DNA from: Salinisphaeraceae bacterium
GTDB lineage: Bacteria; Pseudomonadota; Gammaproteobacteria; Nevskiales; Salinisphaeraceae
Reading direction: 5' to 3'
Length of the DNA stretch: 46,990 nucleotides
NCBI GenBank assembly: GCA_002683405.1
Contig: NYTH01000014.1
Coordinates: 1 to 46,990, forward strand
Both the position numbers and the translations under genes were made by a program. Below are positions 10,018 to 10,727 of this stretch, in pieces (position 1 is the stretch's first letter; the number at the start of each line of letters is the position of its first letter). Under the pieces are notes generated by a model. The model had not been told where the DNA came from, searched no databases, and worked only from the letters and a program-made list of their open reading frames with translations.

Positions 10018-10037
10018 GTGGCGGAGAGGGAGGGATT
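10018..10037 (-). pseudogene. Detached tRNA-Ser 3' end (acceptor, T-arm half and CCA)
   Basis: These 20 bases are identical to 10251–10270, the 3' end of the intact tRNA-Ser gene including the encoded CCA. Immediately after them come two 71-bp direct repeats, and then CGAACCCTC (10180–10188), the sequence that would complete the T-arm (GAGGG-TTCGAAT-CCCTC on the minus strand). This looks like the remnant of a second tRNA-Ser copy whose T-arm is split. The anticodon arm and 5' half are not present next to it. Confidence 0.7.
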
Positions 10038-10179
10038 GTTCGGCCCGTCCATGGGCCTCACCCTCCGGGCTCGCTGTGCTTGCGCCAATTTGCTCCCGGC
10101 AAATTGGTGTTCGGCCCGTCCATGGACCTCACCCTCCGGGCTCGCTGCGCTCGCGCCGATTTGCTCCGGGCAAATCGGT
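10038..10179. repeat. Two 71-bp direct repeats
   Basis: Positions 10038–10108 and 10109–10179 are head-to-tail copies that differ at only a few positions. Each begins GTTCGGCCCGTCCATGG and ends with a hairpin of the type ATTTGCTCC-GGCAAAT. The substitutions in the hairpin keep pairing (CCAATTTG with CAAATTGG, CCGATTTG with CAAATCGG), so the RNA or cruciform fold may be conserved. They lie inside the T-arm of the detached tRNA-Ser 3' remnant. Confidence 0.9.
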
Positions 10180-10215
10180 CGAACCCTCAAGCCGGGTCTC
10201 ATCCGCTTACTCGTT

Positions 10216-10253
10216 CACTTTCGCCAACGGGCCTCGGCCCGTTCGCGAAAGTG
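10216..10253 (-). other. Long hairpin immediately 3' of tRNA-Ser
   Basis: CACTTTCG…AACGGGCC pairs with GGCCCGTT…CGAAAGTG around a two-base loop, with one internal mismatch, giving a stem of about 18 bp. It begins within the encoded CCA end of the tRNA gene. It lacks a T run, so it is either a poor intrinsic terminator or a processing or protection structure for the tRNA precursor. Confidence 0.7.
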
Positions 10254-10343
10254 GCGGAGAGGGAGGGATTCGAACCCTCGGTACGGCATAAACCGTACAC
10301 GCGCTTTCCAGGCGCGCTCCTTCGACCGCTCGGACACCTCTCC
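10252..10343 (-). tRNA. tRNA-Ser (anticodon GGA)
   Basis: The minus strand folds into a complete class II tRNA. It has acceptor GGAGAGG pairing with CCTCTCC, a D-arm, an anticodon stem-loop with CTGGAAA in the loop (anticodon GGA, reading UCC and UCU), a long variable arm (GTACGG/CCGTAC), T-arm GAGGG-TTCGAAT-CCCTC, discriminator G and an encoded CCA. The long variable arm and anticodon identify a serine tRNA. Its 5' end and upstream flank recur twice more at 10475 and 10675. Confidence 0.97.
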
Positions 10344-10387
10344 AAATTCTAGTAATCGCTACCCTAGTCGTAGTTCGGGCTTCCTTC

Positions 10388-10727
10388 CCTCACTAAATTC
10401 TGTCGCGCTCCGGCCGTACTTCCTTGTACGGCGCTCACCGGGGCCGAGCGGTGCTCGTCCTTTATCCGGCTCGCCCGCTCGGACACCTCTCCAATTCTAG
10501 TAATCGATCTACAGTCGTCGTTCGGACATCGATCTTATCAATGCGGCTTCCTGCCGCGTGGCCGCTCGGAGCGTCCTGCTCCTCGGCCCTCACTGAATTT
10601 TAACGCGCTCCAGCCGTACTTCCCTGTACGGCGCTCACCGGGGCCGAGCTGTGCTCGTCCTTTATCCGGCTCGCCCGCTCGGACACCTCTCCAAATTCTA
10701 GTAATCGATCTACAGTCGTCGTTCGGA
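10388..10727. repeat. Two copies of an element fused to a tRNA-Ser 5' end
   Basis: About 137 bp is repeated at an offset of 200 (10388–10524 and 10588–10727). On the minus strand each copy has an upstream flank ending GATTACTAGAATT, the first 18 bases of tRNA-Ser (10475–10492 and 10675–10692), then GCGAGCCGGATAAAGGACG and two hairpins. The clearest hairpin is a perfect 7-bp stem, GCCGTAC/GTACGGC (10413–10432 and 10613–10632), with a six-base loop. The match to the true tRNA gene ends after GAGCGG in the D-loop. Against the intact gene plus its upstream flank, the second copy (10675–10707) matches for 33 bases without a mismatch. The rest of the 10344–10856 gap holds one B repeat (10782–10806) and no recognisable gene. 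Confidence 0.85.

Follow-up and report, generated by a model that had tools for sequence, protein, structure and literature searches.

Displaced pieces of the tRNA-Ser(GGA) gene of a Salinisphaeraceae bacterium lie on both sides of the intact gene, each adjoining a small hairpin-forming module, and the same design recurs at other tRNA genes of this genome and of its relatives. Taken together, the evidence suggests a widespread, little-noticed element family that interrupts essential genes while one copy stays intact. The reading we prefer, at a probability of about 60%, is that hairpin modules entered the ends of genes and, in doing so, duplicated a long stretch of the target on one side. The locus lies in the window (the whole 46,990-nt stretch of DNA analysed), and its two sides carry different modules, namely a 5' or D-loop module (E) and a 3' or T-loop module related to RtT RNA.

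Read along the minus strand, two frames that we take to be dapA-like and (a short one) lipoprotein-like precede a leader (10694–10727), an exact copy of the tRNA 5' head (nucleotides 1–18; 10675–10692) and the first E module (10604–10674), which forms two hairpins with a GGA loop. The same set is repeated 200 nt on as leader (10493–10526), exact head (10475–10492) and second E module (10404–10474). The leaders are a 34-nt exact repeat, and the two units have in common a 108-nt repeat of 94% identity. Model R2, among whose 11 building sequences both modules are included, scores them at 90.6 bits (E-value 6.7e-14) and 91.3 bits (E-value 5.1e-14), respectively. There follows the intact tRNA-Ser(GGA), the putative target gene (10252–10343; called by ARAGORN, 55.7 bits with the Rfam tRNA model), in which the 18-nt head occurs exactly for the third time (10326–10343). 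A hairpin found by repeat search lies just 3' of it (10216–10253), with 18-nt arms that are 94% complementary; inspection of the sequence showed no T run after it. Beyond the hairpin stand an exact copy of the 5' half of the T-arm (GAGGGTTCGA; 10179–10188), two RtT-like cores (10106–10185 and 10033–10109), which contain two 71-nt repeats of 92% identity (10108–10178 and 10037–10107; repeat search), and an exact copy of the last 19 nt of the tRNA with CCA (10019–10037). SRP RNA (Rfam) and then a frame, presumably dnaX-like, come after this tail. The pieces and identities given in the preliminary description are thus all present, and its placement of the breakpoints in the two loops is borne out, one lying after the GG of the D-loop (nucleotide 18) and the other in the T-loop. 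By analogy with relatives, TAGAATCCGCGCC (10824–10836) may be the −10 region of the tRNA promoter; a sigma-70 scan gave no promoter at this position. Group I and group II introns were absent from the window at Rfam gathering threshold. A dispersed repeat of about 32 nt (GGATTTCGCTTCGCTGCATCCGGCCTACG-like) is present in dozens of copies in the genome and several in the window, for example at 10772–10805, 6732–6764, 6284–6316, 15062–15093 and 20348–20379.

The tRNA pieces around tRNA-Ser(GGA) are more than chance and form part of a large pattern. In a strict test, the other called tRNAs were masked, and a head was counted at a match of at least 16/18 within 500 nt upstream and a tail at at least 17/19 within 500 nt downstream. 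Cognate heads were found at 9 of 43 tRNAs of the genome, as against none of 1574 non-cognate comparisons, with Thr(TGT), whose head is on another contig, left out of the count; cognate tails were found at 10 of 43, as against 2 of 1710. In the relative G010, for which the denominator is the 37 distinct tRNAs in the loci examined (out of 46 listed matches), the corresponding figures are 2/37 against 0/1072 for heads and 7/37 against 1/1246 for tails. A looser test (12 nt exact, within 1 kb, unmasked) gave 19/43 cognate and 183/1724 non-cognate pairs, and on account of the latter figure only the strict test was used.

A search of the genome with the locus returned related pieces on other contigs, arranged in the same design at other tRNAs. 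Heads precede E at Thr(CGT), Ser(TGA), Gly(TCC), Gly(CCC), Thr(TGT) and Arg(CCT). Most heads in this genome stop at nucleotides 18–22, but that of Gln(TTG) stops at 12 and that of Arg(ACG), which is free of any E, at 40; tails mostly start within the T-loop or beside it. Upstream of tRNA-Gln(TTG) and tRNA-Ser(CGA) there are longer copies whose D-loop or anticodon region is interrupted. At the loci read, head and tail match the tRNA of the locus itself (Gly, Thr, Arg, Phe, Gln, Tyr and others) or murG or rng; they are therefore target sequence that brackets the element. The repeat family proposed in the preliminary description, with repeated insertion at the D-loop and T-loop, is supported by this recurrence in the genome and its relatives. 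In the dnaX loci of the best 80 of 578 relatives, which are scattered Gammaproteobacteria with apparently no close kin among them, ARAGORN called 18 tRNAs, one of which (tRNA-Ser(GGA) of L169) has a displaced tail; the dnaX locus L189 holds three whole tRNA-Lys genes in tandem. Degenerate tRNA-Gln copies, with hairpins or extra sequence in the D-loop or anticodon loop, lie upstream of tRNA-Gln(TTG) in two genera (L038 of this genome and L229 of G010). At tRNA-Ser(GCT) of this genome (L036), the two heads found upstream measure about 22 nt, and behind them stands another kind of element, whose beginning resembles the hairpin of the T-loop core.

The E module is a family without a counterpart met in the Rfam and literature searches. 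Rfam gave no match to E at gathering threshold in the window and none up to an E-value of 5 in L001 and L029, and the part of the open-licence PMC literature that was accessible yielded no description of E or of tRNA-loop modules beyond Escherichia coli. The E pattern has ten matches in the genome and its reversal none; eight of the ten come after a tRNA head, and the other two are at the start of a frame that we take to be murG and in the T-loop module of the Pro(CGG) locus. A weak eleventh match is found at G000:C8:175539-175613 (33.3 bits, E-value 0.008). E folds as two hairpins and opens with GYGAG in most copies. In the alignment, 93.0% of cells are paired and 19 cells are changed on both sides, as against 5.8 in shuffles (0/500); helix 3 is invariant apart from a single deviant row, which differs at each of the five pairs. 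Model R2 finds E in 27 of 276 gammaproteobacterial genomes (24 of 216 genera); two of the 276 surveyed genomes supplied R2 sequences, and 25 of the 27 positives lie outside the training set. Between 1 and 16 copies were found per genome, with at most 18 candidates scored in each. In G110 (L310, L334), E occurs as inverted pairs, several of them equal in score; these equal scores, and a GACAGGATTAAGCAGG flank common to the two pairs read, suggest recent spread. The leader of tRNA-Phe in the genome of the window (L081) holds an apparent right half of E, free of head and left half, which may be an ancestral leader or a decayed E.

The left boundary of E is exact. For 28 of 40 copies, the left-hand sequence stops exactly at E and turns up again on its right, ahead of the rest of the gene or, in tandem arrays, ahead of the next E; flank alignment scores in these copies range from 18 to 127.5, as against a best score of 10.5 in shuffled controls (n = 40). 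Immediately left of E stands GG in 38 of 40 rows; the other two (L330 and the second copy of L313) may reflect misplaced model edges. Exact repeats flanking E, assessed for 37 of 47 R2 hits (those left out being seven tandem hits in L311, a partial one in L326 and one each in L314 and L324), measure 18–78 nt, with longer alignments taking in neighbouring module sequence in tandem arrays. The 40 copies of the flank test comprise 31 of these 37, six second copies in the same loci being omitted, and nine of the ten from the genome of the window, the Thr(TGT) copy at a contig end being left out. At Gly(TCC) of this genome, the repeat is the 18-nt head only, and the leader is not repeated. Outside this genome, 20 copies pass, of which 18 have a called tRNA 35–345 nt to the right, one lies at rng and one at a contig end.

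Judged by the tRNA to the right, the targets of E include heads of Phe, Arg, Thr, Ile, Met, Lys and Ser, and those of inverted E include 3' parts of Pro, Ala, Met and Arg tRNAs. In the latter, E stands after the GG of GG-ATTCGAACC or close variants, which is the bottom-strand site next to which RtT cores end. At the Pro, Ala and Met loci, the exact repeat consists of the tail and a few nucleotides of trailer, and the Pro locus has two tails, each followed by a different terminator. A single tRNA-Arg(CCG) in G107 is flanked by E at both ends, and in L328 E follows a Leu-like head at a contig end. Protein genes are also affected: in L325 of G311, each of two tandem E units is preceded by 78 nt copied from the start of a frame that opens with MSEEILINVTPQETR; we take this frame to be rng, and what appears to be the whole gene follows. 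The 12 copies that fail the flank test are that of L328, which is cut off by the contig end, that of L330, with a 32-nt repeat 19 nt off the model edge, and ten with no clear repeat; one of the ten, the first copy of L313, has a weak repeat (score 11) that ends at E, and seven (L307, L310, L320, L321, L327, L329, L334) have no called tRNA within 350 nt. The copy in L321 (G102) follows a short T-arm-like piece downstream of what is presumably the 3' end of a tmRNA gene; though it failed the flank test, it may represent the same design at tmRNA.

The 3' pair at 10033–10185 consists of divergent relatives of RtT RNA. Of 57 modules considered, 12 were skipped by hand (inverted, N-masked or unclear), and the alignment took 33 of 46 cores, from several tRNAs and with both window cores included; these form one family. 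The consensus runs from GGTTCGAC through a hairpin of unconstrained sequence, another variable stretch, CCCG-N-AGGG-YGAG and a further variable hairpin to GAGTAATCC, and structure prediction gives 14 pairs, 10 of them with paired changes. The window cores fit this three-hairpin core with its CCCG-N-AGGG-YGAG and score 52.9 bits (10106–10185; E-value 2.2e-8) and 45.4 bits (10033–10109; E-value 1.1e-6) with model R1, scores that are not independent of the model since both cores are in it. R1 finds the core in 121 of 276 gammaproteobacterial genomes (102 of 216 genera), and 101 of the 121 are independent because 20 of the 276 gave training sequences; up to 15 hits were obtained per genome, with 16 candidates scored in each. 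On the same 276 genomes, the Rfam RtT model has a match in 51, of which 18 are above its cut-off. The surveys, confined to Gammaproteobacteria, scored 11, 16 or 18 candidates per genome under strict filters, so that per-genome counts are floors, and the E-values of R1 and R2 are rough.

Hits of the core lie mostly at tRNAs. In the genome of the window, all nine R1 hits at an E-value of at most 2.8e-4 lie at tRNA loci, four of them being model sequences, and the next hit has an E-value of 0.51. Thirty loci were fetched with R1, these being the best-scoring and some coming from genomes that supplied model sequences; 35 of the 39 hits examined there have a called tRNA within 400 nt, and 28 of 39 continue into a tail that agrees with a nearby tRNA in at least 16 of 19 positions. 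Of the remaining four hits, L290 holds two, which are next to a Gln-like tail where the contig ends; that of L286 is 923 nt away from a tRNA, and that of L299 lies in a tRNA-less locus. The 39 are part of 77 R1 hits, the other 38 comprising 34 in loci fetched otherwise and four weak ones from those 30 loci (E-values 6e-4 to 0.008). Species of genus g2 have upstream tRNA-Ser copies that are almost complete and carry the core in the T-loop, and in L245 one tRNA-Ser(GCT) copy has a core in both the D-loop and the T-loop. Pairing of a cognate anti-tail with the tail reaches 11 or 12 of 12 in 11 of 57 modules, as against 22 of 1820 non-cognate combinations; as a general rule it was rejected, only these 11 modules having it and none in the window convincingly. 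In the window, the outer helix of anti-tail with tail was not found, the best pairing (10/12) falling inside the core. The D elements were likewise rejected as general repeats, the strict pattern having ten matches in the genome and the reversed pattern 11. Six of the ten (C11, C14 twice, C27, C29, C39) are at tRNA loci with 0–1 mismatch or in the window; that of C54 lies at a contig end where no tRNA was called and seems to be the remaining half of the C11 copy, and that of C41 (two mismatches) is inverted about 160 nt after tRNA-Asn. Those of C30 and C57 (two mismatches each) were taken for chance in view of the 11 reversed matches.

Comparison of two congeners, G113 and G224, reveals both conservation and turnover. 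Orthologous E units lie upstream of tRNA-Ser(GCT) and tRNA-Arg(ACG) in both, and their stems keep pairing through paired changes, such as AAAAT/ATTTT against AAAAC/GTTTT at Arg. The heads are not kept perfectly, since the Arg head copy of G113 has a mismatch to its tRNA. The T-loop module after tRNA-Ser(GCT) is present in G224 and absent from G113, which may be due to gain in the former or deletion in the latter. At tRNA-Val(GAC), the module tail follows the T-stem of the species' own tRNA (17/19 in the genome of the window, 19/19 in G010) and therefore points to copying from the tRNA gene or selection for likeness.

On the insertion reading, the order produced would be original flank, X, module, X' and rest of gene, where X would extend from the break outward and comprise leader or promoter and tRNA head on the 5' side, or tail with or without terminator on the 3' side. 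It follows from this order that the inner gene copy is whole and the outer X is a detached piece. The entry point would be the T-loop for the RtT-like core and, for E, the position after the D-loop GG. Insertion and duplication would make up a single event, probably by a mechanism common to RtT and E; as to how the modules move, our guess is that a hairpin would join by one end at GG, followed by template switching back upstream. More tentatively, and at somewhat less than even odds, E and the RtT cores may be two branches of one class of non-autonomous DNA element that joins by one end at GG on single-stranded, hairpin-prone DNA, of which tRNA genes are an example, and gives one-sided duplications of variable length. 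Essential genes would then survive insertion owing to the long one-sided target duplication, and the E. coli tyrT repeats, which were described decades ago, would be fossils of the class. Selection alone could also favour gene-sparing cases among many insertions, and E copies without repeats do exist.

The modules might instead be kept as functional RNA in pre-tRNA transcripts, for example as CsrA-binding hairpins that tie tRNA transcription to the level of CsrA, with the tRNA pieces needed for folding or processing. This we consider unlikely, though several observations fit it: structure is maintained by covariation in E and the RtT-like core and between G113 and G224, the E. coli RtT unit is annotated as the ncRNA rttR, and cognate anti-tails do exceed non-cognate ones in some modules (11/57 against 22/1820). 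By eye, GGA stands in the loop of the second hairpin in 28 of 30 E copies from other genomes, and a script finds it in the last hairpin of 23 of 30 as against 65 of 424 background hairpins, an enrichment that is partly built in because R2 came from GGA-bearing copies. Such loops resemble CsrA sites, and a gene for a CsrA-like protein adjoins tRNA-Ser(GCT) in the genome of the window, G113, G224 and G019; putative CsrA binding in pre-tRNA leaders is a doubtful candidate for the reason why structure is kept. However, several modules are antisense to the tRNA, some lie beyond a terminator as read by eye, and the E. coli RtT loops were read as lacking GGA.

If slippage or unequal recombination had simply duplicated the tRNA region in tandem and the copies had then decayed, the modules would be decayed spacers with hairpins. 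Arrays with unit variants (tRNA-Arg(TCG) of G010, tyrT of E. coli) would be expected from such duplication, and loss of copies by recombination would explain G012 as against G008, but homologous modules are found at different tRNAs and in different genera, their position is exactly that of the junction, and murG and rng have them as well, which makes this explanation improbable. Still harder to accept, and very improbable, is an origin from islands or prophages that an integrase had placed at the tRNA as attachment site: the 3' ends of tRNAs commonly serve for attachment, and the tails look like displaced attachment ends, yet the inserts read measure about 70–200 nt with no evident gene, the same modules at different targets argue against a common att core, and 5' heads and protein genes are targets too. 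The tRNA-derived, SINE-like retroposon raised in the preliminary description would account for the tRNA head that precedes each tRNA-borne element read, but its probability is close to nil and it was rejected, the heads being cognate to each locus (9/43 against 0/1574 non-cognate) and the tRNA pieces thus coming from the target and not carried by the element.

The modules also bear comparison with described systems. RtT RNA (RF00391; rttR, at tyrT/tyrV of E. coli K-12) shares the succession of tRNA, trailer, three-hairpin core between GGTTCGA and AATCC, and 19-nt tail in tandem; E. coli K-12 has four RtT units at tyrT/tyrV, each ending in the last 19 nt of tRNA-Tyr, and the window cores likewise lie downstream of a tRNA and end in a 19-nt copy of its 3' end (10019–10037). 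They differ in reaching 22.3 bits against the Rfam gathering threshold of 45, which nothing in the window attains, in having no cognate anti-tail as far as read and in being accompanied by 5' modules, and the RtT-like family extends to many other tRNAs and to both loops. RF00391 itself has no match in the genome of the window at an E-value of 0.001. With REP/BIME sequences and their RAYT (Y1) transposases, E shares short hairpin repeats and the inverted pairs of G110, and its start, we presume, resembles REP; it differs in its low copy number (1–16 per genome with at most 18 candidates scored), its target duplications and the lack of a tie to Y1. A RAYT/Y1 transposase was rejected as mover: Y1 transposases (PF01797), the only mover family searched, were matched in 10 of 13 genomes with E (all but G049, G242 and G255) and in 10 of 10 surveyed genomes without E; G010, outside the E survey, also has Y1. 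The model of the sRNA sX4 (RF02223) spans tRNA-Ser and trailer and scores 76.7 bits at the tRNA-Ser(GGA) locus of L169, whereas the window scores 29.6 bits against a cut-off of 70, the match being to the tRNA and flanks and not to the module cores.

With these results, the tyrT repeats of E. coli become a single instance of a family present at many gammaproteobacterial tRNA genes, and the current Rfam RtT model misses a large part of this family (51 as against 121 of 276 genomes). A second module, E, for which no Rfam match was seen, joins them; long duplications of target sequence bracket it, both at tRNA genes and at protein genes. Should the insertion reading hold, bacteria would harbour small elements that can invade essential genes without being lethal; should the RNA reading hold, a layer of structured RNA would lie hidden in tRNA transcription units. 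Under either reading, the function of rttR becomes testable.
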